Below, in pieces: positions 5,684-19,548 of a stretch of 50,471 nt of DNA (position 1 is its first letter; each line of letters begins with the position of its first letter). Origin of the DNA: Acidobacteriota bacterium (GTDB lineage: Bacteria; Acidobacteriota; Vicinamibacteria; Vicinamibacterales; UBA2999). Under the pieces are notes generated by a model. That model was not told the origin of the DNA, made no database searches, and saw nothing but the letters and a program-made list of their open reading frames with translations. The DNA lies in assembly GCA_022842985.1 (NCBI GenBank), contig JALHON010000003.1, positions 1-50,471 on the forward strand, read 5' to 3'. The position numbers and the translations under genes were made by a program.

Positions 5684-5757
5684 TGGGACGTCGTTCAACG
5701 GTAGGACACCACGCTCTGGACGTGGTTATCGGGGTTCGAATCCCTGCGTCCCAGCCA
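5684..5757 (+). tRNA. tRNA-Gln (anticodon CTG)
   Basis: A complete 74-nt cloverleaf with encoded CCA. The acceptor strands are TGGGACG and CGTCCCA, the anticodon loop is CTCTGGA giving CTG (reads CAG), and the T arm is GGGGTTCGAATCCCT-like. Its 3' half, from the anticodon loop to CCA, is repeated at 18975-19018, marking the insertion point of the island. The island integrase gene reads antisense into this tRNA. Confidence 0.97.
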
Positions 5758-7083
5758 ATCGCTTAAGTGCATCTCCTGCAAGGCCTTACCCTCGTCTGAG
5801 GGGCGCTGGCGCGGCGTGCGTGATCGCGTGGCCACAGGCCGATCTTGAAAGAATCTTGCAACTTTGACCACGGGCGGCGCGAACATCTGCCCGCGTTCGA
5901 GCTTCGCGGCCGCGATCTGCAGGTTGGCCACGGTCTGGTTGTCGTAGCGCTCCGTGGTCGTGATCGACGCGTGACCGAGCAGGTCGCGCACCTGCGCCAA
6001 GGGCACGCCGTGCTCCACGAGCCGCGACGCATATTCGTGCCGCAGGTCGTGCCAGCGCAGGTTGATGGCGCGGAACGCCTGCTGCGACTCGTCGGACAGG
6101 CCCTGGTAGTTGAGTCGAGCGCCCCACCTGGGCGTGTGGCCGTGCGCGCGTAGCACGAGCGTCTGCCACTGCCGGTGGAACACCCGGAGGGGCTGGCCCA
6201 CTTCGTTGCTGAACACCAGCGCGCCGTCGGCCTTGGGCTCGCCGTCCGCGTCGAGCCGCAGCCACGCCAGCACGGCACGCAGGCGCGCGGTTGCGATGGG
6301 CACCACGCGCGTCTTGCGGCTCTTGGTCGTTTCGCCTCGCAGCGTGAGCAGGCCGCGCTCCAGGTCCACGTCCGCGAAGCGCAGGGCCAGCATCTCGCCC
6401 TGGCGCATGCCGGTGTCGAGGGCCGCGATGATGAGCGCGCGCAGATGGGCCGTGGGGGCCGCTGCCAGCAGCGCGGCCTCCTCCGCGTCGTCGATGCGAC
6501 GGCGTCGCGTGTTGTCTTCCCGCAGCTTGGTGATGAGCATCTCGCTGCCGCGCTTGAACGGCGTCCGCTCGAGATACTCGCGGCCCACCGCCCAGTTGAG
6601 CATGTGGCGCAACAGGTCCACGATCCGGTTCACCGTGGCCGGGCGGCGCACGCGCAGCCCCGGCCGGCGCCCGATGACGCTCGGGGCCTGAAGATCTGCC
6701 ACGAAGTCTTGAACGTCGGCCGTGCGGATCTCCGTCAGCGGGCGGTCGCCGAAGCGGTCGAGGAACGGCCGGATCGACCAGTCGTAGTCGGCGGCAAGGG
6801 CCAGCCGCTTCGGGATGACATGCCGGGTGCGGTAGATCTCGGCGAACGCGCGAAACGTGAGCGGGGCCGGCCGCGTGGTGGCCGCGCTCTGCGGGATGAA
6901 GGTGCCCGCCCGCACGGCCTGTCGCAGCTCGTCGAGGGCGGCGGCAGCCTCGGTCTTCGACCGGACTTCGCGGTTGGTCCACTTCGCGAGGCTGACGCGC
7001 ACGCCGCGAAAGCTGCCCCACCACGGATGGTCGCAGCGATCGCGGCTCCGGCCTTCGTGCTCGCAGAGCTTGTAGAGTCCCAT
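5695..7083 (-). CDS. island tyrosine recombinase (integrase)
   Basis: Site-specific recombinase of 462 residues that would integrate and excise the island at tRNA-Gln. The N-terminus has an unusual Cys/His cluster (CEHEGRSRDRCDHPWW), followed by a SAM-like core-binding domain (about 90-190) and a C-terminal catalytic domain. Catalytic residues are visible: Arg in ALDTGMRQGEMLAL, HDLRHEYAS (H-x-x-R), LLGHASITTTERY (His and nucleophile Tyr). The last 20 codons (GRRDSNPDNHVQ onward) are antisense to tRNA-Gln and cross the att core, so the C-terminal five or six residues come from host DNA. The start at 7083 has GAGG upstream and precedes the conserved N-terminus. It lies 34 bp downstream of the Xis-like gene, probably one operon. 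Confidence 0.95.
   Translation of the reverse strand: MGLYKLCEHEGRSRDRCDHPWWGSFRGVRVSLAKWTNREVRSKTEAAAALDELRQAVRAGTFIPQSAATTRPAPLTFRAFAEIYRTRHVIPKRLALAADYDWSIRPFLDRFGDRPLTEIRTADVQDFVADLQAPSVIGRRPGLRVRRPATVNRIVDLLRHMLNWAVGREYLERTPFKRGSEMLITKLREDNTRRRRIDDAEEAALLAAAPTAHLRALIIAALDTGMRQGEMLALRFADVDLERGLLTLRGETTKSRKTRVVPIATARLRAVLAWLRLDADGEPKADGALVFSNEVGQPLRVFHRQWQTLVLRAHGHTPRWGARLNYQGLSDESQQAFRAINLRWHDLRHEYASRLVEHGVPLAQVRDLLGHASITTTERYDNQTVANLQIAAAKLERGQMFAPPVVKVARFFQDRPVATRSRTPRQRPSDEGKALQEMHLSDWLGRRDSNPDNHVQSVVSYR
5714..5757 (+). repeat. attL: 44-bp direct repeat, left end of island
   Basis: These 44 bases are identical to 18975-19018. They run from the anticodon loop through CCA of tRNA-Gln, the usual crossover segment for tRNA-targeting tyrosine integrases. 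The bases just outside differ on both sides. Confidence 0.95.
5840..5866 (+). repeat. 27-bp end repeat, left copy
   Basis: This matches 18846-18872 at 26 of 27 positions, in the same orientation, near both island ends. It lies inside the integrase coding region. It could be an arm-type binding site for the integrase; this is an inference. Confidence 0.7.
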
Positions 7084-7117: not shown

Positions 7118-7327
7118 TCACGCGCGCGCCTCGTCCACCCGTGGCTGAACGGCCGCACGGGCGCCCCGTTCGTACCACTCGTCGATCCACTCGCGCTTGA
7201 GGCGGATGGACCGGCGTCCGCCGATGCGCACATGCCGAATCTCGCGCCGCTCGCAAGCGGTGTAGATGGTGTCGCGGCACACGCCTGCATACTCCGCGGC
7301 GTCGCCCACGGTGAGCCAGAGCTTCAT
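7118..7327 (-). CDS. AlpA/excisionase-like helix-turn-helix protein
   Basis: A 69-residue DNA-binding protein of the HTH_17 / AlpA-Xis type. The fold is seen in LTVGDAAEYAGVCRDTIYTA (winged-helix entry) followed by RHVRIGGRRSIRLKREWIDEW, the usual wing and final helix. Such proteins direct excision or activate the neighbouring integrase. The start is set by CAGGAG seven bases before the ATG. It is followed after 34 bp by the integrase gene in the same direction. Confidence 0.85.
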   Translation of the reverse strand: MKLWLTVGDAAEYAGVCRDTIYTACERREIRHVRIGGRRSIRLKREWIDEWYERGARAAVQPRVDEARA

Positions 7328-7782
7328 GGTGGTCTCCTGGTATCTGGAACGGATGGGCTCGACCCGCCAGAGGCTGTGCCCCTGACGTGGCGAGCGGTGT
7401 TCGGTCCAGTACGAGGAAAGTCCCGCCAGGTGCCCTGGAGGCACGCGCGCGAGAGGACGCCAGCGCGCGCTGAGACGCGCGCAGGGTGGACCGCGGGGCC
7501 GCGTCGCCGAGAGGCATCGCAACCCTTACTGATGGAACGCGCTTTCCGACCGGAATCTTGCGCTGCTGCCGAACCATGCCGAGGCCTGCCTGTTCCTCAC
7601 GACGGGAACACAACCAAGTGACGCCGGATGCGTCGGGGTCAGAGGAAGGAGGGCCGCGGCGGTGGTGACGTGCGCGGCGCGTGCAGGTGGGTGACCCGAC
7701 TGAGTCGCCAGCATAACGAGCCGGCTGCCGCTCCGTCAATGTGCGCGTCCGCCAGATAGCATGCTAGTCGTGCTATAGTGCC
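7328..7782. other. non-coding control region between xis-like gene and higBA
   Basis: 455 bp between divergent genes with no credible reading frame. It should hold the promoter of the xis-int operon on minus, though I see no strong -35/-10 pair. The right edge holds the higBA operator. Confidence 0.5.
7756..7779 (+). promoter_or_regulatory. higBA operator and -10 box
   Basis: An inverted repeat with 8-bp arms and one mismatch (ATAGCATG 7756-7763, CGTGCTAT 7769-7776). It overlaps a TATAGT box (7774-7779) only 3 nt before the higB ATG. The layout suits autorepression by HigA and a leaderless transcript. Confidence 0.6.
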
Positions 7783-8079
7783 ATGAGTGTGATTCGGACG
7801 TTCGCGGACGACACGACCCGGGACATCTGGAACGGCGTCAACAGCCGACCGGCCCGGCGAATTCCACGGGACCTGTGGCCAGTCGTGATTCGAAAGCTGG
7901 ATCAGATCGACGCGGTGACTCGGCTCGACAGCCTGAAGGTCCCACCGGGCAATCGGCTCCATGCGCTGACCGGCGACATGGCAGGATTTCACGCCATTCG
8001 CGTGAACGACCAGTACCGGATCGTCTTCAGATTCGAAGGCCAGGACGCGTGCGACGTGCAGTGCACGGACTACCACTGA
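7783..8079 (+). CDS. higB: HigB-family toxin (RelE superfamily mRNase)
   Basis: A 98-residue toxin of the HigB/RelE fold; known members cleave ribosome-bound mRNA. The family pattern is clear: IRTFADDTTRDIW at the start, then IPRDLWPVVIRKLDQIDAV, LDSLKVPPGNRLHALTGDMAG and the C-terminal HAIRVNDQYRIVFRFEG with the core strand Arg residues. It is followed after 9 bp by higA in the toxin-first order typical of this type. The pair may stabilise the island. The ATG directly follows the operator and there is no ribosome binding site. Confidence 0.93.
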   Translation: MSVIRTFADDTTRDIWNGVNSRPARRIPRDLWPVVIRKLDQIDAVTRLDSLKVPPGNRLHALTGDMAGFHAIRVNDQYRIVFRFEGQDACDVQCTDYH

Positions 8080-8088
8080 GAAGACACG

Positions 8089-8388
8089 ATGCTGCCCACC
8101 AACCGCCCTCCGACTCACCCAGGCGAGATGCTCTTGAAGGAGTTCCTCGAGCCGCTCGGCGTCTCTCAAGTAGAAGCCGCAACGCGGATGGACATTCCCT
8201 TCCAGCGCCTGAATGCCATCGTGAAGGGCCGCCGGGGTGTCAGTGCTGACACCGCGCTGCTGCTCGAAGCGCTCACCCGGTGGGACGCCGAAATCTGGCT
8301 CAGCCTGCAGGCGAAGTGGGACCTGTGGCACGCGCTGAAGAATCGCGGGCTGCGGCCCAAGGTACGGGCCCTGCCAAAGACCGCGTAG
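8089..8388 (+). CDS. higA: HigA-family antitoxin
   Basis: A 99-residue antitoxin with an XRE-type helix-turn-helix; it would bind and silence HigB and repress the operon. The family start NRPPTHPGEMLLKEFLEPLG, the HTH VSQVEAATRMDIPFQRLNAIVKGRRGVSADTALLLEAL and the end IWLSLQAKWDLWHA are all present, so it is full length. It begins 9 bp after higB. A remnant of a related HigA C-terminus lies outside the island at about 22165-22250. Confidence 0.93.
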   Translation: MLPTNRPPTHPGEMLLKEFLEPLGVSQVEAATRMDIPFQRLNAIVKGRRGVSADTALLLEALTRWDAEIWLSLQAKWDLWHALKNRGLRPKVRALPKTA

Positions 8389-8809: not shown

Positions 8810-9835
8810 CTACGCCGTGCCCACCAGATGCGCCAGATGCAGATACTGCCGTGTCATCGGCACGAACTCCACGGCGGCCTGCCCGCGCACGAACTGGTCG
8901 TTCAGGCCGTTGCAGTAGACGGTGGCCACCGCATACGCCACGTGCGTCCGCCAGGCCGTCTCGAGCGCCTCGAACCGGGGACCCCGATACCGGTCGGCCG
9001 CCTCGCGAGCCCGGGCATCGAGGGTGAACCCCGGCTCCTGTTCCGCCCGCTTCCGCTGCTCGAACAGCCACTCCAGATCCTTCCCATCAGACAGGCCCAA
9101 CGGCTGGCGCAATTGCTCCTGGAACGCGTGCCGATAGGCCTGTGTGGACGTGGCCAGCGGCGTCGGCACCAGCACGCGAAGGGTCCAGCGATTGAGCATG
9201 CGCCACATGTGGTGATGGCGCACGAGGAAGGTGCGGAAGTCGGCCGTGGACGCCCGCGTGACCAGGTAGGTGAACACGTAGCGATCCTCGAGCGCGTGAA
9301 TACCGATGGGAAGCTTGTCTGGGAACAGTCGGAGGGTCTGACGCGCCCCCGATCCGAACGCCAGATGGGGCAGCTCGTGGGGCCGGAAGCGGTATTCGGC
9401 GAGGCGCGTGAGGAAGTAGCGTGTCTTGTCGGCTTCGGTCCCGAGCCACACCATGTCGCGATCGTCGAGCACCGCGTCGAGCAGCATCAGCCGCTCGACC
9501 ATGCGGCTGCGTGGCGCCCGCCGCCGGTGCCGGTTGTTGGCCTGCCCGATGAGGGCATAGAGCCGCTTGTGGTGCACGTGGAAGTAGCGGCCGTGATGCA
9601 GCCGGCCGGGACGCTCTTCCCGCGCGAGCCCCTTCGCGACCAGACGGTGGATGAAGTCGTGGGACTTCTGCCCGTGTGCCACGCCGGCAAAGCGGCAGTA
9701 CTGGCGCTCCACGAACACGCCGGAGTGCGCCATCACCGTGGTGAGGAAGCGCGCCTGGCGCTCGGTGAAACCCTCGCCCTGAAGGCAATGACTCTGGGCC
9801 GCCACGACGTCCTGGAAGTTGAGGTGTTCATACAT
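8810..9835 (-). CDS. island hypothetical protein (replication-relaxation-like?)
   Basis: A 341-residue soluble protein. The N-terminal 100 residues look like a winged helix: FTERQARFLTTVMAHSGVFVERQYCRFAG, then HDFIHRLVAKGLAREERPGR and the wing HHGRYFHVHHKRLYALIG. The rest is alpha/beta with many His and Arg (VRHHHMWRMLNRWTLRVLVP) and no transmembrane helix. This recalls proteins next to relaxase or transfer genes in integrative elements, but I cannot name the family securely. The ATG at 9835 lies 4 bp after the stop of the upstream gene, so the two are co-transcribed. Confidence 0.7.
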   Translation of the reverse strand: MYEHLNFQDVVAAQSHCLQGEGFTERQARFLTTVMAHSGVFVERQYCRFAGVAHGQKSHDFIHRLVAKGLAREERPGRLHHGRYFHVHHKRLYALIGQANNRHRRRAPRSRMVERLMLLDAVLDDRDMVWLGTEADKTRYFLTRLAEYRFRPHELPHLAFGSGARQTLRLFPDKLPIGIHALEDRYVFTYLVTRASTADFRTFLVRHHHMWRMLNRWTLRVLVPTPLATSTQAYRHAFQEQLRQPLGLSDGKDLEWLFEQRKRAEQEPGFTLDARAREAADRYRGPRFEALETAWRTHVAYAVATVYCNGLNDQFVRGQAAVEFVPMTRQYLHLAHLVGTA

Positions 9836-9839
9836 CGCG

Positions 9840-10766
9840 TCACCCCAGCAGTTCGTCGGCCAGTCCGCCCCGGCGGGCGCGGGAACCCCGGCCACCGCCA
9901 CCGCCGCGCCCCGAGAAGCCGGCGCCGTAACGACGGAATCCAGACCGCGCGGCCCCGGCCGCATGGGCGCCGCGATAGTGCGGCGTCACCACCTCGATGT
10001 CTTCGTGCCGCGGGTCGGACGCGGCGTTCTCATACTCGATACGTGCGTCGGGGAAATGCACGGCGCCGTCGAAGTACGGCAGGTCGTGCTGCCGGGCCCA
10101 CGCGGCGACTTCTTCAGCCGTCCGGTCGGGTCGGCCGTCGCTATCGGCCCGGCCCCGATTGCGCGCCTGCAGGAAGCGCTGGTAGTCGCGCTTCAGCTCG
10201 TAGTCGAGCACGACGCGGCGCACGCGGCCGCCCTGGTCGCGAATCCGCGCCTCGGCACGTTGGAAGGCGCGGTAGACCTGGGCGTCGTGTGACAACTCGC
10301 GAGGCTTCTTCAGGCCGGCGTAGAACGTCTGGCTGCGGGCATCGTCGCGCGGCAACCGATGGCCATCCAGCAGATCGCGGCCACGGTCGGTCAGCACGAC
10401 CACGTCGCGCCCGGGGCCATCCAGCGGGATGCGGTCGAGCAGGCCGGCCTCCTGCAAGCGGCCGAGGCGGGCGCGCGTGTGACCAGCCTCGACCCCGTCG
10501 CGCAGGTCCGCTTCCTGCACCACGCGGAACGCGCCGATCGTGGCCAGGGCATCCACGTCAACGCCGTCGAGGTCGTAGTCGCGACGGCGACTCTGCACGC
10601 GCTCGCGAGCGTCGCCATGCGGCAGGTCGAGGTGGCGCGCGAACGGGCTGCGCGCCTCGTGATCGGGCGCGTGCTCGGCATCCCGGCCAGAGCGACCGCC
10701 CCAGTCGCGGTCAGCGGATCGATCGGAGTCGCGGTCGTCTGCCCAGCGTGGATCAAAACGGTTCAT
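9840..10766 (-). CDS. island hypothetical protein with winged-helix core
   Basis: A 308-residue protein. The first 60 residues are very rich in Arg and Asp (likely disordered), followed by a MarR/replication-relaxation-like winged helix: FRVVQEADLRDGVEAGHTRARLGRLQEAGLLDRIPL, then a beta hairpin VVVLTDRGRDLLDGH. A middle part (HDAQVYRAFQRAEARI...RRVVLDYELKRDYQRFL) resembles a restriction-fold-like strand set. The end is Gly/Arg-rich. The start at 10766 has GGGAGG six bases upstream. It is the first gene of a two-gene unit with 8810-9835. I infer a role in DNA processing of the island. Confidence 0.7.
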   Translation of the reverse strand: MNRFDPRWADDRDSDRSADRDWGGRSGRDAEHAPDHEARSPFARHLDLPHGDARERVQSRRRDYDLDGVDVDALATIGAFRVVQEADLRDGVEAGHTRARLGRLQEAGLLDRIPLDGPGRDVVVLTDRGRDLLDGHRLPRDDARSQTFYAGLKKPRELSHDAQVYRAFQRAEARIRDQGGRVRRVVLDYELKRDYQRFLQARNRGRADSDGRPDRTAEEVAAWARQHDLPYFDGAVHFPDARIEYENAASDPRHEDIEVVTPHYRGAHAAGAARSGFRRYGAGFSGRGGGGGRGSRARRGGLADELLG

Positions 10767-10854
10767 CACGGCCTCCCGCCGGCGAGTATTGGGAGGCACG
10801 TGCCTGGCCGCAACTCAGCGTCGGGCCGTGACGGACCGTCAGGAGTCGAGTCGG

Positions 10855-10880
10855 GTGGCGCGGCGGAGTGCCCGCGCCAC
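10855..10880. terminator. hairpin downstream of intI
   Basis: A 9-bp GC-rich stem (10855-10863 with 10872-10880) and an 8-nt loop, located just past the stop of the minus-strand integron integrase. There is no T-tract. Confidence 0.5.
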
Positions 10881-10884
10881 ATCC

Positions 10885-12176
10885 CTACGGCGTCGCGCGA
10901 GCGTGCAGGATGTCGAGCGGGCTTCGCGGCGGGTTCCGGAATTCCTTCACGACGTGGGTGTAGATCATCGTCGTCTCCACATTCGTGTGGCCGAGGTATT
11001 CCTGGATCTGGCGGATGTCGACGCCATTCAGCAGCAGGTGTGTGGCGAAGCTGTGCCGCGGGGTGTGCACCGACACGGGCTTGTGGATGCGTGCGGCCGC
11101 CGCGGCCACCTTCACGGCCTTCTGCACCACCGAGTCGCTCATGTGGTGACGGCGCACGATGCCCGCCCGGGGATCGGTAGACAGCGTCTGGCTGGGAAAC
11201 ACCCAGAACCAGCCGAACTCCTTCCCGGCATTCGGATACTTGCGGTCGAGCGCCTCGGGCATCCACACGCCCCCAGCGTGGTCTGGCGATCGGCACGGTG
11301 CAGCGCTTCGACCTTCGCGAGGTGCGCCCGCACCTGGTCGCGCCCCGCTTCGGCCAGCAGCGTCGCACGGTCTTTGTCGCCCTTGCCGCTCCGGACGAAC
11401 ACGAGGCCCTGATCGAAGTCGAGATCCTTGACGCGCAGTTCGCAGCACTCCGACACGCGTAGGCCGCCGCCATAGATGAGCGTGGCAATCAGCCGCGGCG
11501 TGCCTGTCATGGCGCCGAGCAACGCCGCCGTCTCCGGCATGCTGAGCACGACCGGCAGGCGCTCACCGCGCTTCGCCTTGACGCCCGAGGAGACGCCGTC
11601 CAACGAGACGCCAAGCACCTCACGGCACAGAAACAGAATGGCGCTGAACGCCTGGTTCTGCGTGCTGGCTGACACGCGCTGATGCACGGCCAGATGGGTC
11701 AGATAATCTCGCACCCCCTCAGCGTCGACGCGCGGGTGCGGCACGCCCTGCCGGGTCGCCGCGTACTCGAGGAACCGCCGGACCCAGTCCACGTAGGTGC
11801 ACTCCGTGCGGTAGGCGTAGTGACGCGTCCGCAGGCGCGTACGCAGCAGGTCGAGCGCTGCCAGCGGACTGGACGGAGCGAGCGGGTCCGCCGCCCCCTC
11901 GGTGCGCCGGTGCCAGTCTGGGCGCTTGAGGAAGTTGACGAAGTAGATGCGCAGCGCCTGATCGGCCTGACGCACCTGCCACTCCGCCACGCTGCCGTGC
12001 TGTGTGAGCTCCTCACAGAAGAGGCGGACCTGGTCGACGAGGGGATCGTTCGTCGCCGGCCGTGCCAGGAAGCGCCGGACCCAGCGCACGGCGTAGGGGG
12101 CGGCGTTCGGCCGCACCAGCTGCGCCTTCAGGAGATATTCACCGAAGGCCTGAAGCGACGATTCGAGTTCGCGCAT
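10885..12176 (-). pseudogene. intI: integron integrase IntI, frameshifted
   Basis: Tyrosine recombinase of the integron class, which exchanges cassettes between attI and attC. The N-terminal and first catalytic part read from 12176 ([45 protein letters not shown] with catalytic Arg). Reading then shifts by one base at a run of five C on plus (11270-11274). The second part continues with [20 protein letters not shown] and [11 protein letters not shown], the extra patch found only in IntI proteins, then [27 protein letters not shown] with the nucleophile Tyr. One added G in the run restores a continuous protein of about 430 residues, longer than class 1 IntI because of an N-terminal extension. 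It is either a true loss of function or a homopolymer read error. It is divergent from the cassettes, as in all integrons. Confidence 0.92.
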
Positions 12177-12508
12177 GCGTCACCTTGCACTGCCGTGGGG
12201 CAAGGCGCGTTCCAGAACCGACCCTGTAGGTCTCTGTTGGTTTTTCGCGGGTGCTACGCCAGGCCGTCGTTCGGGCGGGCAACGCGGGTTGCAGTGGAGG
12301 CAACCACGGTGGCCGGTTCCGATACTTCGCCGCCCTCCACCTAAACCCGCCGGGCGCACAGAATGGCACTGGCACCAATTGCTGGGTCGAGCTGCATCCG
12401 CGGCGCGGAGTCGTTGAGTCCGTGAGGCTTGTTCGGGATGCCAAGGACGGGCACAATGCCGGCAGTGGTAGGCAGGGGGCGCCGTATCCTGAGCTGCACC
12501 GGCAGCTG

Positions 12509-12538
12509 TTTCCAGGAATGGTCCCTTCTGCCTATATA
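12509..12538 (+). promoter_or_regulatory. candidate cassette promoter Pc
   Basis: TTTCCA (12509-12514), an 18-bp spacer and TATATA (12533-12538) point towards the cassettes and overlap the attI-like site. Confidence 0.45.
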
Positions 12539-12550
12539 AAGTTAGGCAGA
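12524..12550 (+). other. attI-like recombination site
   Basis: The core AAAGTTAGGC (12538-12547) equals the core of attI1, and GTTAGGC fits GTTRRRY. It sits in an inverted repeat (TCTGCCTA and TAGGCAGA, 8-bp arms). The first cassette gene begins 10 bp after the core. Crossover would be after the G at 12541. Confidence 0.75.
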
Positions 12551-12556
12551 ACAACG

Positions 12557-13036
12557 ATGCCCTCAACTCGCGTGCTTCGAGGCGTCGTGCACAACGCGTT
12601 GGAGACCTACGTCAGTCGCTACTCGTCGTTCGACGGCTACTGGCTCTTCGGGTTTCTCATTGGCCAGCTCGATCATCTTGAGTTCGACCTGCTCGCTCCT
12701 CTGGGGGAGAGTGGCACGCCGATCGAGGCGGCTCAGCTCCGGGCGGGTCAGGTGCTTCGCGAGCAACTCGCCAAAGCGGGGCTCGGCATCGAGCGCGTTC
12801 GCAGGGCCGTACTCACACTTCGGCGGGGCCAGAGTGCCGACGTCGTGGGCGAGCAGTTCTTCACTCGCGGCTGGGAGCTACATGCGAGTCTTCAGGCCGA
12901 GGCGGTGACCGGCCGTGTGTTTCACGCCGAGCAACTGGTCCGCGTCGCCGTGCACAATCCTCAGGTTGAGCGGCGCGGTGCCGTGAACGGCGGTTGGGCG
13001 CTGTGGCATCATGCGGGCATCACCCGCCGCGGCTGA
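12557..13036 (+). CDS. cassette 1: conserved unknown, SRYSxxDGYWLFGF family
   Basis: A 159-residue protein. Its N-terminal pattern VLRGVVHNALETYVSRYSSFDGYWLFGFLIG followed by LEFDLL is, to my knowledge, that of a widespread uncharacterised family found in proteobacteria and integron cassettes. No catalytic motif, signal peptide or membrane span is visible. The last 15 codons (GWALWHHAGITRRG) are translated attC, and the stop TGA lies in the L' box, so the C-terminus is a product of the recombination site. The start ATG lies 10 bp after the attI core; AACAACG takes the place of a ribosome binding site. Confidence 0.85.
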   Translation: MPSTRVLRGVVHNALETYVSRYSSFDGYWLFGFLIGQLDHLEFDLLAPLGESGTPIEAAQLRAGQVLREQLAKAGLGIERVRRAVLTLRRGQSADVVGEQFFTRGWELHASLQAEAVTGRVFHAEQLVRVAVHNPQVERRGAVNGGWALWHHAGITRRG

Positions 13037-13052
13037 ACCGCGGTCGTTAGCC
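12978..13052 (+). other. attC1
   Basis: R' is GTTAGCC at 13046-13052 and the L'-like box is GGCTGAA. Pairing arms are GCGGTT with AACCGC, and an inner hairpin GCGGG-CATCA-CCCGC is visible. The motif GCTGTGGCATC is at 13000-13010. The left limit is approximate. Confidence 0.7.
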
Positions 13053-13069
13053 CGACGTCGAGAAGGATC

Positions 13070-13450
13070 ATGGAGACCGAGCGCTGGTACATCGCGGTTC
13101 TAGTGGTTGCGTCGCAGGTCGACGGCGAGTCCGCTGAACCGCTTCTGGATCTTCAGCTGCGCTTGATCCGAGCAGTCGACGACGAGCAGGCGTACCAACG
13201 GGCGATTGAGGTCGGCGACCAGGCAACGCACTCGTATCGCAATGCCGATGGGGCCTTGGTTTCTTGGCAGTGCCTCGGGTTGAACGACCTCCGAGAGCTC
13301 CTCGAGCAAGAGCTGGCTCACGGCGTGGAGGTGTTCAGTCAGCTTACGCGGCGGCCAGCCACTGAGGTCCTGGTTGCGAAGGAGCAGTTGACCTGCTTTT
13401 GGGCTGAAGCCAACAAGGAGAGGACGGCTCGTGAGATTTTCGGCGAGTAG
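13070..13450 (+). CDS. cassette 2: DUF4288 family protein
   Basis: A 126-residue soluble protein. The pattern WYIAVLVVASQVDGE, LLDLQLRLIRAVDDEQAYQRAIEVGDQATHSYRNADG, VSWQCLGLNDLRELLEQELAHGVEVFSQ is that of DUF4288, a family of small proteins without known function. It begins 24 bp after the cassette boundary, with AGAAGGA nearby as a possible ribosome binding site. It is followed by its attC. No motif reveals a role. Confidence 0.8.
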   Translation: METERWYIAVLVVASQVDGESAEPLLDLQLRLIRAVDDEQAYQRAIEVGDQATHSYRNADGALVSWQCLGLNDLRELLEQELAHGVEVFSQLTRRPATEVLVAKEQLTCFWAEANKERTAREIFGE

Positions 13451-13546
13451 AGCGCTAGCCAAGGTCCGCGTTAAGCCTGTGGCGTTCACGAGCTGTGGCA
13501 TCATCCGCGCTCGGTGCCGCCGCGGCCTACGCTGAGTTCGTTAGCC
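13451..13546 (+). other. attC2
   Basis: R' is GTTAGCC at 13540-13546. The GCTGTGGCATC motif (13492-13502) is shared with attC1, attC8 and attC9. The left limit is approximate. Confidence 0.65.
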
Positions 13547-13562
13547 CGACCGGGGAGACAGC

Positions 13563-13901
13563 GTGAACGACATCGACACAGCGATCGCCAGAGCCGAGTC
13601 GATCCTACCGGGGGTGGAGGCGCCTGACGGTGTGGAAGAAGACCCGCGGTGGCAGGCGATCATTGACATCGAGAATCACATCGAATCGGCTCCGGAGCCG
13701 ATCTGGCGGTTTATCTGCCGCTGGGGGTCGCCTTACTTTCCACTGGTCGAGGAACGCGCTGGCTCCGACGGGCTCTTCGCTTCTACGTTCTGCATGTGCT
13801 CGAAGTTCGGCCAGTCCGCAGCGCCTCAGAACGCACTCCGGTTCGACGCGCTGGAGACCCGGTTGCGAGGTTGGTCGATCAGCGGGCTGGCCAGCGCATG
13901 A
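13563..13901 (+). CDS. cassette 3: unknown protein, shortened paralogue of cassette 10
   Basis: A 112-residue acidic protein starting with GTG. It shares two blocks with the cassette-10 product: DPRWQAIIDIENHIESAPEPIWRF near residue 28 and SKFGQSAAPQNALRFDALETRL near residue 82. Between them about 25 residues found in cassette 10 are missing (CRWGS joins directly to PYFP). The length difference is in frame, so it could still fold. The family has no function I know; the constant PEPIW and SKFGQS motifs define it. Confidence 0.8.
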   Translation: MNDIDTAIARAESILPGVEAPDGVEEDPRWQAIIDIENHIESAPEPIWRFICRWGSPYFPLVEERAGSDGLFASTFCMCSKFGQSAAPQNALRFDALETRLRGWSISGLASA

Positions 13902-13974
13902 ACCCGACGGCGGCCGGCTTCCGTGCATCATCTGGGGCATTCGAGCGCCGCGGGTTGTACGCCGTCCGCTAGGC
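13902..13974 (+). other. attC3
   Basis: R' is a variant, GCTAGGC, at 13968-13974. It is preceded by a GC-rich stem region. It shares CATCAT-type sequence but not the full motif of attC1. The left limit is approximate. Confidence 0.5.
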
Positions 13975-13981
13975 GTCGCAA

Positions 13982-14425
13982 ATGAGGCCCTTCTCACTCC
14001 GAATCCGCGAAGAAGTCTTGGGCACCTTTCCAGAATGGGAGCAGTACGCAGCAGAGGAAGCCTGGAAGGACAGCGATCCCTACCTCGTGGTGACGGTACC
14101 TGCTCCGAAGAGCGCAGACACCGATCTACCACTGCGGATAAGCACGTGGGATGACGAAGTAACGGTCGAGTTCGACTACTACCACACGCACTTTGACCGC
14201 TGGGCTGCCGTACCCGGAGACACGAGACACCAGTCGGCGCAGCTCTATGTGCAGGAGTTGCTCGCTGAGAAGTTCGCTGTTGCTTCATGGTGGCAAGAGA
14301 ACCACTGCAAAGTCTGCGGGCAGGTTGAGCCCGGTCAGGCACTCACGCCGTCGCTGAACATCGCGTACACCAGAGTCCGCGTCCGCTCATGGAACGGCAC
14401 CCACAATGCCGCAGGCGACGCCTAA
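13982..14425 (+). CDS. cassette 4: hypothetical protein
   Basis: A 147-residue protein of unknown function starting 8 bp after the core site. The middle is rich in aromatic and acidic residues (LRISTWDDEVTVEFDYYHTHFDRW), followed by a helix SAQLYVQELLAEKFAVASWW and a CKVCG pair that could bind metal with only two Cys. The RISTW motif also occurs in the next cassette product (MIRISTWRREAEL), so the two may be distantly related. The stop TAA is inside the R'' box of attC4. Confidence 0.75.
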   Translation: MRPFSLRIREEVLGTFPEWEQYAAEEAWKDSDPYLVVTVPAPKSADTDLPLRISTWDDEVTVEFDYYHTHFDRWAAVPGDTRHQSAQLYVQELLAEKFAVASWWQENHCKVCGQVEPGQALTPSLNIAYTRVRVRSWNGTHNAAGDA

Positions 14426-14462
14426 CCCCTCGCTCAAGCGGCGCTTAGCTCGAACGTTGGGC
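14420..14462 (+). other. attC4 (compact, well formed)
   Basis: R'' is GCCTAAC (14420-14426) and R' is GTTGGGC (14456-14462). Inner boxes CTCAAGC and GCTTAGC are separated by three bases. Only 43 bp long, it is the clearest attC in the array. Confidence 0.85.
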
Positions 14463-14491
14463 GCACTCACTCGAACCGAAGGTGGCGACCC

Positions 14492-15163
14492 GTGACCCGA
14501 ACGAAGAGAGCAGCCGTCCTGGCGCTTCAGCGTCGTCGTTTCATCGCACGAACCCTGGTCGATGGCCCGCACTCTTTCCATCCACCCAAGAACGCGAAAA
14601 CGTACGGGTGGCTGGAGCCGACGCTGCGATTCGTCGTTGGTGACTATCCCGCGGATACGCGATCCTTCGCGTTGTACTGCGACGACTCCATGAACAAGTA
14701 CTCTCACTTGTTCACACCCATGATCCGGATCTCAACGTGGCGGCGAGAGGCTGAGCTGAATAACCGCGGCCAATGGCCGCTCGTTGACGTCAGATGGGCT
14801 TACCTACGACGGGGGAGAGGCCGGGTAGACCAGCACATTCGCCGGCTCGTGGGGGCGCTGACGCGCCTGAAGCTGGGCGAATCTGGAATCTATGACAGGC
14901 GACAGGCCGCACCGGCCAGCGATGGCCAGACGCTCGGCTTCGGCCTCATGGTTCGCACTGGTGTGCACTACCTAGAACTCTCCGGAAGCGCGCCTCGAAA
15001 TGACTCCCTAGCGAAAATCGTCATGGCCGGATGCGCCCTGCTCGAAGAAGTGGCTTCTCCAGTGCCCCTTCGTGGTTGGACCGAATGCTACGATCAGGAC
15101 CTCACTGCGAAACAGTTGATGGCTCGTCGGCATTGGAGATGGGCTCCAAGACGGGAGTTATAG
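14492..15163 (+). CDS. cassette 5: hypothetical protein
   Basis: A 223-residue basic protein starting with GTG, in the largest cassette. It is alpha/beta with a Tyr-rich first half (TLRFVVGDYPADTRSFALYCDDS, MIRISTWRREAEL) and a later helical part (QHIRRLVGALTRLKLG, DSLAKIVMAGCALLEEVA). There is no signal peptide, membrane span or recognised catalytic motif. Shared RISTW wording with cassette 4 is noted. Function unknown. Confidence 0.7.
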   Translation: MTRTKRAAVLALQRRRFIARTLVDGPHSFHPPKNAKTYGWLEPTLRFVVGDYPADTRSFALYCDDSMNKYSHLFTPMIRISTWRREAELNNRGQWPLVDVRWAYLRRGRGRVDQHIRRLVGALTRLKLGESGIYDRRQAAPASDGQTLGFGLMVRTGVHYLELSGSAPRNDSLAKIVMAGCALLEEVASPVPLRGWTECYDQDLTAKQLMARRHWRWAPRREL

Positions 15164-15220
15164 CCAACGAACGGAGCTGACGCGCACAGAGCGGGCGCGG
15201 CTCATTCGTGCTCGCTAGGC
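15162..15220 (+). other. attC5
   Basis: The R''-like box is AGCCAAC (15162-15168) and the R' variant is GCTAGGC (15214-15220). Inner pairing is GAGCTGACGCGC with GCGCGGCTC. 59 bp. Confidence 0.65.
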
Positions 15221-15232
15221 GTCTGAACACAC

Positions 15233-15769
15233 ATGGCCGAATGGTGGGACGCTAGAAACACACGCTGGCACGAGCTGTTCGAAGCCGCCGTGGAAAGCGT
15301 GTCGTCGAGACGCCTCTCCGAGGCTCTGAGCCGGCTCGACCGTGTGGGCAGCTGGCAACGTCGCCAGACCCGACACGGCACGGAGAACCACTTCTGGCAC
15401 GACGCGGAGGTGCTCTGGCTTCGCGGCGTGGCCTTGGAGCGTGCTCGCAGACGTGCGTTAGCCCGAGCAACGTGGACTCGACTCGCGAGGCTCTACGCGA
15501 AGTCGGTCCGACGACCGATCTCCTCGTTTGAGCCCTACTGCCTTTGTTGTGGGGAGCGTGAGCTCAGCTTTTCTCCGAACTGGGCGGCCGCCGCAAGAAT
15601 GCTTCGCGAAGTGACCGATCGCGACGAGCGCGCGATTGCTGCCGCTCTGTCGAGCTACGCTCAACCATCGTCGAGCCTTGGACGATGCGATCAGGCGCTC
15701 AAGCAGCGGTTGCAGCCTGCGACGCGCGGTGGCAACCTGAGCGCGCCGCGGCTGAACCGCGGGCGCTAG
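15233..15769 (+). CDS. cassette 6: hypothetical helical protein
   Basis: A 178-residue Arg-rich protein that seems all-helical: WHELFEAAVESVSSRRLSEALSRLDRV, LWLRGVALERARRRALARATWTRLARLYAKS, MLREVTDRDERAIAAAL. A CLCCGERE motif lies in the middle. The helix pairs are similar to TPR-like repeats but too few to be sure. The stop TAG is part of the R' core of its own attC, so the last residues are attC-encoded. Confidence 0.65.
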   Translation: MAEWWDARNTRWHELFEAAVESVSSRRLSEALSRLDRVGSWQRRQTRHGTENHFWHDAEVLWLRGVALERARRRALARATWTRLARLYAKSVRRPISSFEPYCLCCGERELSFSPNWAAAARMLREVTDRDERAIAAALSSYAQPSSSLGRCDQALKQRLQPATRGGNLSAPRLNRGR

Positions 15770-15771
15770 AC
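15685..15771 (+). other. attC6
   Basis: R' is GCTAGAC at 15765-15771. Nested inverted repeats (GGCGCTC with GAGCGC, GGTTGC with GCAACC) lie upstream, and the same GCGGCTGAACCGCGG right arm as in attC1 and attC9 is present. The left limit is approximate. Confidence 0.6.
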
Positions 15772-15779
15772 GGCAGCCG

Positions 15780-16106
15780 ATGTCATCTCCCGAACAGAAG
15801 GCGCGCAAGAGCGCCGCGAAAGTGCGAATCCGCCTGGTCGAGGACATCCTGCGCCGGTGGGACCCCATTGGAGTCGGGCCGGGAACGATGGCGCCGGCCG
15901 ATGAGTACGACCGTTACGCTCCGCACATGGTCTCGATGGTAGAGGGCGGCTGCACAGTTGAGGAACTTGCGACGCACCTCGATGAACTCTCGACTACAAC
16001 CATTGGGGTCGGCTCGAATCCGAAGGCAAGCGCTTCATTTGCCGCACAGATCATCGAAGCGCTAAGGCCGTCTGGCGTATCGCTGGAGCGGGCGCGTGAG
16101 GAATAG
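15780..16106 (+). CDS. cassette 7: DUF1871-like small protein
   Basis: A 108-residue protein. The pattern IRLVEDILRRWDPIGVGPG, then DEYDRYAPHMVSMVEGGCTVEELATHLDEL and a late GVG, resembles the DUF1871/YugE type (WDPIGV...DEYD), often found in cassettes and phage regions; no function is known. The start is 8 bp after the core site. The likeness is by eye only. Confidence 0.7.
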   Translation: MSSPEQKARKSAAKVRIRLVEDILRRWDPIGVGPGTMAPADEYDRYAPHMVSMVEGGCTVEELATHLDELSTTTIGVGSNPKASASFAAQIIEALRPSGVSLERAREE

Positions 16107-16114
16107 GGTGCCAG

Positions 16115-16155
16115 GCCCAGACAACACCGCGCGCGGCCCAGCTCAACCGTTAGAC
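16115..16155 (+). other. attC7
   Basis: R' is GTTAGAC (16149-16155), a full GTTRRRY match. CAGACAAC upstream acts as an R''-like box, and a central GCGCGC stem is present. It is a compact site. Confidence 0.65.
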
Positions 16156-16172
16156 AGTATGAGGCCACGCGT

Positions 16173-16646
16173 ATGGCGCTGGTAACCGGTGGGCCAGAGT
16201 TCGACCTAGACTGGGATGACCGCACAAACGCGTGTCTCTTGCTCCTCCGCGAAGCGGCAGATCGGGTGGCTAAGGGCGGTGCCGGTGCGTTGCCGTCACA
16301 GGCGATCGTTGATGCGATTTTCTGGGCCCTAGCAACGCCCCTTCCGCCGTACCCCCTTCGGGCGGGCGAAGTGCGATTCCAGTCGAGATTCTTTGACAGC
16401 GACTGCGCGCCGAGACCCGCGGCGCACGACTCGTGCGCTCTGCTTCGGAACGGTAGCGCAAGGCCCAGGGACATTGAGGCGATTCGCGGCGTCGTCCAGA
16501 TCATTGAGTTATCGACACAGCAATGGGCAGAAGGGAACCCTGAAGAGCCGGACACGCGGAGCGTGTTCAGGCGTGTAATGCAGTTGTTGTGGTCAAGCCA
16601 CTTGGCCCGTAGACCTCCGGGCTTGGACTATCCGCATGGGCTGTAA
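16173..16646 (+). CDS. cassette 8: hypothetical protein
   Basis: A 157-residue mainly helical protein: TNACLLLLREAADRVAKGGAGALPSQAIVDAIFWAL, then a loop rich in Pro and Cys, then DIEAIRGVVQIIELSTQQW and SVFRRVMQLLWSS. There is no signal peptide or metal motif. The start ATG is 17 bp after the core site. I do not recognise the family. Confidence 0.65.
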   Translation: MALVTGGPEFDLDWDDRTNACLLLLREAADRVAKGGAGALPSQAIVDAIFWALATPLPPYPLRAGEVRFQSRFFDSDCAPRPAAHDSCALLRNGSARPRDIEAIRGVVQIIELSTQQWAEGNPEEPDTRSVFRRVMQLLWSSHLARRPPGLDYPHGL

Positions 16647-16744
16647 GCTGGCCAAGTTCACCAGCGCATGCAGCCTGCGGCCGGCAGCGCTGTGGCATCG
16701 TGCGGCTCATCCGACCGCTGCTGCTGATTGCGCGGTCGTTAGAT
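16647..16744 (+). other. attC8
   Basis: R' is GTTAGAT (16738-16744), a full consensus match. GCTGTGGCATC is at 16689-16699. The left limit is approximate. Confidence 0.65.
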
Positions 16745-16754
16745 TGACAGAGAC

Positions 16755-17341
16755 ATAAGCGACGATCCCTATTCAAAGCTTCGTCCCCAGCCGGCCACGC
16801 CACCGGAGGAGATCTGCGCGTGCACGCCGGGTGGTCCAATCGTGTTGCAGGTGCACTTGGCGCCCATTCCTCTGTCGTGCGCGTGCTGCAATCTCGAAGT
16901 GCCTCCAGAACGCATCGGGCTCGACCCGCCACTCGTTGAGGCCGTTGCATCGTGGCGCGCCTTGTACCAGGCGTTTGACACATTGTGGCTTGACTCAGGC
17001 GAGCACGAAGACTGGGCGGCGTCACACCTCCGCAACCCCAACAGTCCCGTTAACCTGCGGGGCTTGGCGCTCGTGCGCCGGCTCAACGAGCGCCGACGCA
17101 CTTTTTCTCTGGTGGTTCTGGCCTGCTGATGAGGGCGGTGAGGTTGCCGTGCCCACAGGGTGCCCTCGCTGCTCGCAGGCTCTTGAAACGCGTTTCTCAG
17201 GCGAACGACCGCAGGGCGGCAGCTTGCTCGTGTGCGACGCCTGCTCGATCGCGATAGCCGTCCAACCAACGGCTGCCGCCGACGGCGGTCAGACGCTGTG
17301 GCATCATGCGGGGCAGCAACCGCTGCGGCTGAACCGCGGGC
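16755..17341 (+). pseudogene. cassette 9: decayed DUF2310-like zinc-ribbon protein
   Basis: The frame from 16755 reads ISDDPYSKL and on to LSCACCNLEVPP, SWRALYQAFDTLWLDSGEHEDWA, NSPVNLRGLALVRRLNE. It then shifts by one base at a T run (about 17101-17105) into LWWFWPADEGGEVAVPTGCPRCSQAL and LLVCDACSIAI. This is the layout of DUF2310, Zn-ribbon proteins thought to bind nucleic acid. Three defects are visible: ATA where the ATG is expected (an internal GTG is at 16842), the frameshift, and loss of the stop in the attC so the frame runs into cassette 10. It is not likely to work as it stands. Confidence 0.75.
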
Positions 17342-17348
17342 GTGAGCC
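17260..17348 (+). other. attC9, degenerate core
   Basis: The R''-like box is GTCCAAC (17260-17266), GCTGTGGCATC is at 17295-17305 and the L' region is GCGGCTGAACC. R' is GTGAGCC (17342-17348) where the sister sites have GTTAGCC. The change at 17344 damages the crossover triplet. Confidence 0.7.
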
Positions 17349-17361
17349 CGACTCGACCAAC

Positions 17362-17757
17362 ATGGGGGACATCTACCAGGCCATTCGGGAAGCCGAGGAG
17401 CTGCTTCCGGGGCATGCCGCACCCGACGACGAGGATGATCCTCGCTGGGCGGCGATCATCAAGGTCTCGGAGTATCTCTGGGAGGAGACTGACCCCGAAC
17501 CGATCTGGGCCTTCGTCGTTCGGTGGTCAACCGACGCGGACGAAGATCTTCAGCAGGCGCTTGGCAAATGCGTTCTTGAGCACCTGTTGCAGCACTATTT
17601 CGCCGAATACTTCCCTCGAGTCGAGCATCAGGCGCGTCACGATGCCGGCTTCGCCCGCGTCTTCCGCGCGTCCAGCAAGTTTGGGCAATCCGAGGAGCCG
17701 GCAAACGCGGCCAGGTTCGACGCGCTCAAACGTGAGCTGGGGGACTTGGTATGGTGA
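17362..17757 (+). CDS. cassette 10: unknown protein, full-length paralogue of cassette 3
   Basis: A 131-residue acidic protein. It shares DPRWAAIIKVSEYLWEETDPEPIWAF and SKFGQSEEPANAARFDALKREL with the cassette-3 product, and carries an extra helix (DEDLQQALGKCVLEHLLQHYFAEYFP) that cassette 3 lacks. The family is unknown to me; the leading acidic and amphipathic character suggests a small soluble helical protein. The ATG at 17362 lies in the same frame as the decayed cassette 9, with no stop between, so a fused product is possible if cassette 9 is translated. Confidence 0.8.
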   Translation: MGDIYQAIREAEELLPGHAAPDDEDDPRWAAIIKVSEYLWEETDPEPIWAFVVRWSTDADEDLQQALGKCVLEHLLQHYFAEYFPRVEHQARHDAGFARVFRASSKFGQSEEPANAARFDALKRELGDLVW

Positions 17758-17784
17758 ATTGGGCGGGCTAACATCCAACTAGCC
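17758..17784 (+). other. attC10 remnant
   Basis: GGGCTAAC is followed after a few bases by ACTAGCC. These resemble R'' and R' boxes with the stem nearly absent. Probably a truncated site. Confidence 0.4.
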
Positions 17785-17793
17785 AGACAAAAA

Positions 17794-18375
17794 ATGCCAA
17801 ACGAACAACAGGCGTGGAAACGGCTGCTCAAGGCCTGTGAGTCCGGGCCAGCCTGCGCCGTTGAAGAGGCGCGGTGGCACGTCGAGGCGTTCCCGCGCAG
17901 TGTTCGCGCCTGGCTGTTGTTCGCCGACGTCTTGGCAGAGCTGGCTCTTTACTCAGAAGCTGCGGCCGCGATTCGACGGGCCGGACAGCTGTCGTCGGGC
18001 AAGGCCGCGGTTCGTGTCTGGATTCAGTGGGGCTTCCTCTACCGCGAGAAGCAGGATCTGCGCCGCGCCGAGCGTTGGTTTCGTCGGGCACTCTCGGCCG
18101 AGCGAAGCACGGCGCATCACATTCTCTTGGGTGCCACGCTCGCGAGGCAGGGCCGGCTCAGCGAGGCTCTCAGAGAGTACCGCTCTGCGATCCTTCGGCG
18201 CACGCCGGGCGAAGCGGTTGATGAGGCGCACCTAAATGCGGCGTTGGTGCTCCGAGCACTGGGCCGCTATCGACAGGCGCGAGTCCACCTCGTTAAGGCA
18301 CTGTCGCTAGATCCGAACTACGCGTTGGCTAGACGCACCATGACCGACATCGACCGCGTGTTGGCGCGATCATGA
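17794..18375 (+). CDS. cassette 11 (probable): TPR-repeat protein
   Basis: A 193-residue cytoplasmic protein built of tetratricopeptide repeats, which bind other proteins. About four to five repeats are visible: RAWLLFADVLAELALYSEAAAAIRRAGQL, VRVWIQWGFLYREKQDLRRAERWFRRALSA, HHILLGATLARQGRLSEALREYRSAILR and LNAALVLRALGRYRQARVHLVKALSLDPNYALA. There is no signal peptide. It starts 9 bp after the degenerate attC10. Partner unknown. Confidence 0.85.
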   Translation: MPNEQQAWKRLLKACESGPACAVEEARWHVEAFPRSVRAWLLFADVLAELALYSEAAAAIRRAGQLSSGKAAVRVWIQWGFLYREKQDLRRAERWFRRALSAERSTAHHILLGATLARQGRLSEALREYRSAILRRTPGEAVDEAHLNAALVLRALGRYRQARVHLVKALSLDPNYALARRTMTDIDRVLARS

Positions 18376-18470
18376 CAGGCTGTCTGAGTTCAAGCCCGAA
18401 CTGCAACACTGACGTCGTCCCGGTCCCCTGGCGGGCGCCGCTGGGCGCAAGATTGGTCTTCGGAGGCAAC

Positions 18471-18725
18471 ATGCCACTTCCAGACGGCCTCGATCACGAC
18501 AAACTCGCGGAGGCCGCCCTGGCGATTCTCGCGCTCACCGCATTCAGCAGCAGACACGAATCGCGCGCGTGGAAGGGGCTGGACTGGGACGTCCTGGACC
18601 TTCTGTACCGGCGGGGATGGATCGAAGATCCGGTGGGCAAAGCCAGGTCCGTGGTGCTGACCGAGGCCGGCGAACGCCTTGCGCCTGCCCTTATGGCGCG
18701 CCACTTTTCGAAGGCTCGGCCATGA
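18471..18725 (+). CDS. DUF6429-like small protein
   Basis: An 84-residue protein: DHDKLAEAALAILALTAF, then SRAWKGLDWDVLDLLYRRGWIEDPVGKARSVVLTEAGERLA. The RAWKG-DWD-LH-G-I-DP-GKA-SV-LT-G pattern is that of DUF6429, small winged-helix-like proteins of unknown role. The start ATG has GGAGG six bases upstream, a better ribosome binding site than the cassettes have. A GCTGGGC box at about 18441-18447 may be the boundary of a last cassette. Confidence 0.75.
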   Translation: MPLPDGLDHDKLAEAALAILALTAFSSRHESRAWKGLDWDVLDLLYRRGWIEDPVGKARSVVLTEAGERLAPALMARHFSKARP

Positions 18726-18974
18726 CTGCGACCGCTCGGACGTCGTCACCCGCCGCGCATGGTAGTGCTGCGAGCGACGCGGAAGCTGCTGGCGAGCCTG
18801 CCGGTCACCACACCCGAGCTGCTGCGCGCCAAGTGGTAGGTCAATCGATCTTGAAAGAATCTTGAAACTTTGTCCCCGAAACCACCCACTTGAAACTTTG
18901 TCCACCGGAAGGTCGATCCCGTAAACCATTGAGAACACTAGATCTTCCGAGACCGTCCGACCCGCCATGACCCT
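18726..18974. other. right end of island, non-coding
   Basis: No gene is seen. It contains the right copy of the 27-bp end repeat and a second copy of its last 15 bases, plausible recombinase or accessory-factor binding sites. Confidence 0.55.
18846..18903 (+). repeat. right-end repeats (27-bp copy plus 15-bp copy)
   Basis: 18846-18872 matches 5840-5866 at 26 of 27 bases. The segment CTTGAAACTTTGTCC occurs at 18861-18875 and again at 18889-18903, 28 bp apart. Confidence 0.7.
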
Positions 18975-19018
18975 CTCTGGACGTGGTTATCGGGGTTCGA
19001 ATCCCTGCGTCCCAGCCA
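18975..19018 (+). repeat. attR: 44-bp copy of the tRNA-Gln 3' half
   Basis: Identical to 5714-5757. There is no tRNA 5' half, so it is not a functional tRNA. It marks the right end of the island. Confidence 0.95.
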
Positions 19019-19229
19019 GACTTCGCTCGGCTTCGCCGAGCTTCGTCTAGGGCGCCTTTGGCGCCCAAGCCAAGCGAGAATCCGACGGGCGAAGTCTGTC
19101 TCGCCGAAGCGATGCCTCGCCGAAGCGGCGGCGGGCGCGAAGGCGGGCGCACCTGCGCCGATACGGCGTCACAATTCGGCCGAATCTCGCGAACGTCCGT
19201 CATGGCCCGGAACCTGCGCTACCGAGCGC
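19019..19229. terminator. hairpin-rich region once downstream of tRNA-Gln
   Basis: Two hairpins (CTCGG-CTTCG-CCGAG at 19026-19040; GGGCGCC-TTT-GGCGCCC at 19050-19066) would have followed the tRNA before the island entered, probably as its terminator. A repeat also found near 39945 lies at about 19112-19150. No gene is seen. Confidence 0.5.
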
Positions 19230-19415
19230 ATGGACTCACGACGGTTCGTCTACATCCTGCGGAGCGATCCACAACCCGATCGCCACTACGTCGGCCTCAC
19301 GAGTGACGTGACGCGACGTCTCGTCTGGCACAACTCGGCGCCGTCCGGCGTCACCGTCCACCATCGGCCGTGGTCAGTTGTCGTCGCGCTCGAGTTTGCA
19401 GACCGCCTGGCCGTG
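19230..19415 (+). pseudogene. truncated GIY-YIG nuclease
   Basis: The first 60 residues match small GIY-YIG (UvrC N-terminal-like) nucleases: FVYILRSDPQPDRHYVGLTSDVTRRLVWHN, then HHRPWSVVVALEFAD. After about 19415 the similarity ends, and the expected conserved C-terminus (the FExYLKSGSG-type block) is missing. The frame continues without homology to 19748 and overlaps the next gene. Broken copy; probably inactive. Confidence 0.7.
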
Positions 19416-19548
19416 CTCGCATTGGCCATCGGCGGGGTCGGAGCCGCCGGGGCACAGGCGCAGATGCGCGTGGGTCAGGGCCGTGCTACTCTGCGCCGCG
19501 CGTCGCCCCCTCGCAGTGCCGGCTTCCTCTGCCCACGGAGTCCTGACC

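Follow-up and report, generated by a model that had tools for sequence, protein, structure and literature searches.

How did a row of small, mostly uncharacterised genes, with hairpin-like sites between them, come to lie in the genome of an Acidobacteriota bacterium? We addressed this question for a stretch of 50,471 nucleotides (hereafter the window; contig JALHON010000003.1 of assembly GCA_022842985.1, order Vicinamibacterales, UBA2999). The window is the entire contig (C3), and the assembly of 4.97 Mb in 469 contigs was taken to be a metagenome bin, like the named relatives. An earlier annotation made from the letters alone (the sequence-only reading) had proposed at least ten gene cassettes between positions 12541 and 17784, and this count stood: ten open units lie on the + strand beside a divergent integron integrase gene. 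The unit to which they belong is larger than that reading had drawn it, because the integron is the cargo of an island (5714-19018) that had been overlooked. We consider it very likely that the genes form an integron cassette array and that this integron travels inside a small, site-specific integrative island as its cargo.

The ten units run from an attI-like GTTAGGC (12541) to about position 17784, and their open reading frames (ORFs), all on the + strand, encode 95-223 amino acids. The GC content of the array is low (63.1%); stretches of equal length in the right flank have 69.2-72.3%. A strict R''/R' pattern search recovered a single canonical attC site in the window (14420-14462), and an Rfam search of the window at the gathering threshold returned one tRNA only and no attC. 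The lone strict match is a limit of the pattern and not an absence of sites. Following these two results, attC sites were gathered from relatives. A lineage form of attC, CTAAC-N4/9-GCAGCCGNCGGCG, was present in 26 of 59 genomes, and a genus-type loop of 14 nt, GCTGTGGCATCATGCGG, was shared by four cassette ends of the window and the attC sites of three sister species.

A covariance model with 22 base pairs was trained on 35 attC sites of relatives, with the window excluded; this set superseded MAFFT alignments of nine and six sites, in which the stems were misaligned. The pairing among the training sites is genuine, with 95.9% of cells paired compared with 17-47% in slid controls and a covariation score of 0.159 that fell to 0.016-0.037 when slid. 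When the window was searched with filters off, eight of the ten expected sites were among the top 12 matches, at the predicted ends and on the predicted strand. Eight of 12 best matches thus lay inside the array on the + strand, which makes up 5% of the search space (simple binomial ~2e-8), and one further match of 23 bits lay outside the array (29654-29729, - strand). The statement of the sequence-only reading that an attC site follows each gene was borne out by this independent model for eight of the ten, leaving out site 2 (E 5.4) and site 10 (~17757-17784), for which the model gave no match with filters off. A covariance search for attC structure, whose failure was to count against the sequence-only reading, found such structure, with three sites at E 2e-9 to 1.5e-8. 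We therefore regard it as extremely improbable that the region holds no integron and consists of small genes without relation to one another, separated by GC-rich hairpins that arose by chance. Such an origin would suit the single strict canonical site and the several sites near background score, but the three strongest sites were found by a model blind to the window, four of the sites have a 14-nt loop in common with attC sites from sister species, and an integron integrase adjoins the sites.

That integrase gene is matched by TIGR02249 in two pieces, at 11268-11855 (model positions 2-194; E 1e-56 for the N-terminal piece) and 10909-11280 (191-314; E 5.8e-53 for the C-terminal piece), which together cover positions 2-314 of 315. 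As the pieces overlap in different frames, one frameshift is indicated in intI (near 11,275). The tyrosine recombinase adjoining the array is thus identified, from its profile match, as an integron integrase. It carries an N-terminal extension of ~105 residues (11853-12176) that is common to its close relatives, of which the named ones are mostly Acidobacteriota, including Vicinamibacterales. The extension is also found in IntI of Thermodesulfobacteriota, Nitrospirota, Kiritimatiellota, and others; the extended proteins include L164, L165, L166, L167, L168, and L171. When 61 IntI proteins were placed in a tree, a single branch with 100/100 support took in 23 of the 24 proteins labelled as extended and, besides them, two rows cut short by contig ends; the other extended protein (L192) lay off that branch and its extension is doubtful. 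The usual Vicinamibacterales IntI were placed elsewhere. The broken window IntI was not part of the tree, and its assignment to a distinct, N-terminally extended clade is made on its 63-74% identity to extended relatives and on the common extension. The extension weakly resembles a SAM-like core-binding domain (PF13495, E 0.008; hhalign probability 28%) and may be a second core-binding domain. The predicted structure of an extended IntI was poor overall (predicted local distance difference test, pLDDT, 50), with the extension modelled as four helices (pLDDT ~75). Other IntI of the order (L019, L020, L031, L033) are co-directional with their cassettes (the inverted type); the extended IntI are divergent. 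We found no publication on N-terminally extended IntI in the open-access literature.

The whole integron is enclosed by a unit of 13.26 kb in which a tRNA-Gln gene is followed by a recombinase, an HTH_17 protein, a HigB/HigA pair, a two-gene module, intI, and the array, in that order. Since the tRNA repeat is present at both ends and the recombinase and HTH_17 genes lie within, we interpret this unit as a tRNA-integrated island with the integron as its cargo. The HTH_17 protein is a candidate for an excisionase-like directionality factor. Homologues of the first module gene (8810-9964) occur in 58 of the 162 genomes searched in this order; nearly all of the homologues inspected have the second module gene next to them. 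The reading frame of the island recombinase terminates within the tRNA-Gln gene (5695-5757). Homologues of the HigB/HigA-like pair, 77-86% identical, are located elsewhere in a sister species, G003 (L117:6609-7237).

Sister species gave a comparison at the same tRNA. On contig C239 of G004, genus-type attC sites in the same orientation, a DUF6429 gene (84% identical), the arm repeat, and the tRNA-Gln repeat follow in the same order as in the window, and the contig terminates in 34 bases of that repeat. Contig C310 of the same genome opens with the same junction and continues with another recombinase and a homologue of 8810-9964. Taken together (L085, L119), the two contigs would fit a tandem of two elements at tRNA-Gln whose recombinases differ. 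In G003, the tRNA-Gln gene is followed by a 21-bp scar and, after ~210 bp, by the right-flank sequence of the window. The ~445 bp to the right of attR (19019-19463), which are missing from the G003 site, contain a weak GIY-YIG match.

A further case came from another genus of the family. In G025, a tRNA-Arg gene and a 51-bp repeat 13.0 kb away (C472, L157; 2045-15140) enclose a recombinase, an intact intI, an attC site of 83.9 bits, and both module genes. This is a second, independent integron-bearing island, at another tRNA and with another type of IntI. A tRNA-Gln island in a different genus (L247, G005:C52, 333-4810) holds the two-gene module, an HTH_17 gene, and a recombinase; its contig stops before any integron could appear.

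Descriptions of integrons from outside pathogens usually present them as sedentary. The integron here could be an ordinary sedentary chromosomal one with resident cassettes, the tRNA repeat having been left by an island of earlier, unrelated origin whose ends flank it by coincidence. Integrons are indeed common on chromosomes of the order (intI above the family cut-off in 27 of 59 relatives), most of the attC arrays found lie on contigs without the island module, and many integrons of the order are unlinked to that module. We nevertheless judge this explanation quite unlikely, because attL and attR fully enclose intI and the array, which adjoin the island module; because array, DUF6429, arm, and tRNA repeat succeed one another in G004 as they do here; because the integrase belongs to none of the types usual in Vicinamibacterales; and because the same arrangement is seen again in G025, at another tRNA.

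Some observations speak against an integron carried by an island. Two of the ten attC sites are non-significant and two more are marginal. The G003 site is imperfectly empty, as the ~445 bp beyond the right end of the island are absent there. For the island recombinase, the comparison of islands gave no close relative (26-37% identity). Lastly, single frameshifts could stem from misassembly, since the sequence comes from a metagenome bin; the decay of the attC sites is independent of such errors.

This decay was seen in several features. The attC sites of the window scored 9-44 bits. Higher scores were reached by the best sites listed for relatives (~51-84) and by the genus-type sites of G004 (49.5-66). 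In alignments of the window sites, the 3' half (L', R') was mostly retained and the 5' half altered, and R''/R' were strictly canonical at one of ten sites. The R' box opens with GTT at five of ten sites and with GCT, GTG, or ACT at the other five. GTT at the attC cleavage point is an established requirement, and our comparison rests on this established biology, because selection of the training sites demanded GTT and the loss in the window is not measurable against that set. In cassette 9, the upstream part of the gene (16842-17129) and the zinc ribbon are in different frames, the latter carrying on in the frame of the ORF starting at 16831, and a YnfU zinc-ribbon match (E 1.8e-4) falls in this cassette's other frame. 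Taken together, the intI frameshift, the decayed attC sites, the broken cassette 9, and the gapped cassette 3 indicate that integron activity assembled the array and that decay followed. The integron part now appears from its sequence to be largely inactive. A second IntI of a different type, intact, is encoded in the same genome (G000:C315:869-1813, L093) and could in principle act on the decayed array; its 4.9-kb contig gave no attC. In an early survey, the intI genes found to be pseudogenes made up nearly a third of the total (PMC2426708). The coordinates of the features are listed in Table 1.

Table 1. Features of the tRNA-Gln island and its integron, with positions in the window.
Feature	Position	Strand	Basis and remarks
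tRNA-Gln (CTG), integration target	5684..5757	+	ARAGORN, Rfam RF00005
attL, 3' half of tRNA-Gln	5714..5757	+	direct repeat of 44 bp at its full extent, 44/44 identical to 18975-19018
Arm-like direct repeat inside attL	5840..5866	+	27 bp, 26/27 with 18846-18872
Island tyrosine recombinase	5695..7083	-	PF00589, E 3.9e-26; adjoins tRNA
HTH_17 protein	7118..7330	-	PF12728, E 2.8e-12
HigB-like and HigA-like pair	7783..8388	+	PF05015, E 1.1e-15; PF01381, E 3.4e-7; island backbone, no cassette
Two-gene island module	8810..10799	-	8810-9964; 9840-10799, weakly Replic_Relax-like
intI, N-terminally extended	10909..12176	-	TIGR02249 in two pieces; frameshift near 11270-11280
attI core GTTAGGC (putative)	12541..12547	+	from sequence; entry point of first cassette, start of array
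Cassette 1	12542..13046	+	ORF 12557-13036, without family; homologue in sister species G002 at 50% identity
attC 1	12952..13052	+	15.4 bits, E 0.11; decayed; R' GTTAGCC; genus-type loop GCTGTGGCATCATG
Cassette 2	13047..13540	+	ORF 13070-13450, DUF4288 (PF14119, E 6.9e-19)
attC 2	13457..13546	+	9.1 bits, E 5.4, very weak; R' GTTAGCC; genus-type loop
Cassette 3	13541..13967	+	ORF 13563-13901, paralogue of cassette 10; in-frame gap of ~24 residues
attC 3	13885..13974	+	40.5 bits, E 1.5e-8; R' GCTAGGC, GTT lost
Cassette 4	13968..14455	+	ORF 13982-14425, without family; in no further genome among the 162
attC 4	14420..14462	+	18.9 bits, E 0.012; sole strict canonical site (GCCTAAC...GTTGGGC), very short
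Cassette 5	14456..15213	+	ORF 14492-15163, nothing above family cut-off
attC 5	15157..15220	+	21.4 bits, E 0.0024; R' GCTAGGC, GTT lost
Cassette 6	15214..15764	+	ORF 15233-15769, nothing above family cut-off
attC 6	15698..15771	+	43.7 bits, E 2e-9; R' GCTAGAC, GTT lost; overlaps ORF end
Cassette 7	15765..16148	+	ORF 15780-16106, without Pfam family
attC 7	16070..16155	+	13.9 bits, E 0.27, weak; R' GTTAGAC
Cassette 8	16149..16737	+	ORF 16173-16646, nothing above family cut-off
attC 8	16655..16744	+	21.4 bits, E 0.0024; R' GTTAGAT
Cassette 9	16738..17341	+	DUF2310-like zinc-ribbon gene, frameshifted (PF10071, E 2.9e-5)
attC 9	17260..17348	+	41.6 bits, E 7.5e-9; R' GTGAGCC, GTT lost
Cassette 10	17342..17778	+	ORF 17362-17757, DUF6869-like (PF21746, E 7.5e-6, below cut-off)
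attC 10 remnant	17757..17784	+	GGGCTAAC...ACTAGCC, from sequence
TPR protein	17794..18375	+	PF07719, E 3.5e-16; past last attC remnant, possibly a former cassette
Gene before right arm repeat	18372..18725	+	PF20008, E 9.9e-24
Arm-like direct repeat inside attR	18846..18872	+	27 bp; in G004:C239 too, 129 bp ahead of the tRNA repeat
attR, displaced 3' half of tRNA-Gln	18975..19018	+	44-bp repeat; right island end

The products of the cassettes were mostly uncharacterised, as had been supposed: only cassette 2 (DUF4288) passed the curated Pfam cut-off, with cassettes 9 (DUF2310) and 10 (DUF6869) just below it. The view that the array holds no known resistance gene was likewise upheld, since no cassette matched the curated resistance families of NCBIfam. 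The three cassettes searched among 162 genomes of the order had a patchy distribution, that of cassettes and not of core genes (cassette 1 in two genomes, cassette 4 in one, cassette 10 in four), so that a conserved chromosomal gene order is not what they represent. The locus examined around the G002 homologue of cassette 1 gave no attC. Cassette 10 shares 76% amino-acid identity with a G002 gene that adjoins a genus-type attC. With dN of 0.148 far below dS of 1.135 (NG86) between the two, this family is maintained as a protein by selection. Its predicted structure is all-helical (pLDDT 82), and nothing in the PDB matched it below E 0.86. For the profile, PADLOC, PHROGs, NCBIfam, and plasmid results, the reading frame of cassette 10 from 17362 was used. 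Plasmids gave no match to the whole array, and protein searches gave distant matches only, for cassettes 1, 2, and 7 and none for 4 or 10. The distant homologues of cassette 7 (~34%) are on mostly proteobacterial plasmids and are hypothetical or unannotated. A search of viral contigs with the DUF4288 cassette gave no match.

The sequence-only reading had further suggested toxin-antitoxin or phage-defence functions, for which our searches returned no support: the best match of any cassette in PADLOC-DB was JetB1 to the DUF4288 cassette, which was not significant (E 0.014), PHROGs gave no match, and no cassette matched a toxin-antitoxin family in profile searches. That the region is a defence or toxin-antitoxin island, with cassettes acting against phages, is thus unlikely in our view. 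In a metagenome survey, genes assigned to defence mechanisms are over-represented among those of integrons (odds ratio 6.46; PMC7370490), and a HigB/HigA pair lies within the island, but this pair is outside the array and no cassette matched a known defence, toxin-antitoxin, or phage family above threshold. In the same survey, about two thirds of integron genes were without known function, and cassettes of no known function are the rule (PMC7370490). The cassettes of the integron island most likely encode small soluble accessory proteins. Their proposed value as screening candidates is weakened by the frameshifts in intI and cassette 9 and by the in-frame gap in cassette 3.

The following course of events would account for the locus. 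IntI would have captured the genes singly, by recombination of folded, single-stranded attC hairpins into attI. The island tyrosine recombinase, perhaps aided by the HTH_17 protein, would have inserted the 13-kb unit into tRNA-Gln, and this insertion would have restored the tRNA at the left end. More broadly, small tRNA-integrating elements with a recombinase, an HTH gene, and the 8810/9840 module might be a standing vehicle for integrons in the Vicinamibacterales and nearby orders, with whole integrons, those of the N-extended IntI clade among them, moving between tRNA sites and species. We put this forward only tentatively, as somewhat less likely than not.

A small tRNA-gene island is an unusual vehicle for an environmental integron. 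Our searches of the open-access literature found no tRNA-integrated island with an environmental integron in Acidobacteriota, which as an absence is weak evidence, and no description of Vicinamibacter integrons. Five integron classes have been mobilised by insertion into conjugative elements, according to a review (PMC8618304). A tRNA island with a non-clinical integron, together with a second case at another tRNA and in another genus, offers a specific, testable path along which environmental integrons themselves could move. The series of decayed attC sites, in which most of the 3' half is preserved and most of the 5' half altered, is natural material for studying which parts of attC are required.

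Chromosomal integrons of Acidobacteria and a taxon-specific attC model for them have been published (PMC8352920). The integron described here shares with them the IntI-specific domain, R'' L'' L' R' pairing, small cassettes without known function, and attC sites conserved within the lineage. It differs in its location within a tRNA-integrated island, in the decay of attC and intI, in the N-terminal extension of IntI, and in the divergent orientation of the array. Integrons in phage genomes are similarly the cargo of a mobile element (PMC9892861), whereas no phage structural genes were seen among the island genes examined here. Islands of the SGI1 family carry class 1 integrons and resemble our element as integrative islands that bear an integron along with their own tyrosine recombinase and an excisionase-type gene; they are also known to accumulate in tandem at one site, and G004 seems to show the same (PMC9035990). 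SGI1 elements occupy the 3' end of trmE and have a backbone of 26-28 ORFs and usually a multidrug resistance region (PMC9035990), whereas the island in the window targets tRNA-Gln instead of trmE and has a small backbone without resistance genes. A further parallel may be drawn to the tRNA islands that Islander maps from displaced tDNA fragments, which have a regenerated tRNA at one end, a displaced 3' fragment at the other, and a tyrosine integrase by the tRNA (PMC4383910); in contrast to these, the island described here carries an integron and belongs to a little-studied genus of Acidobacteriota.

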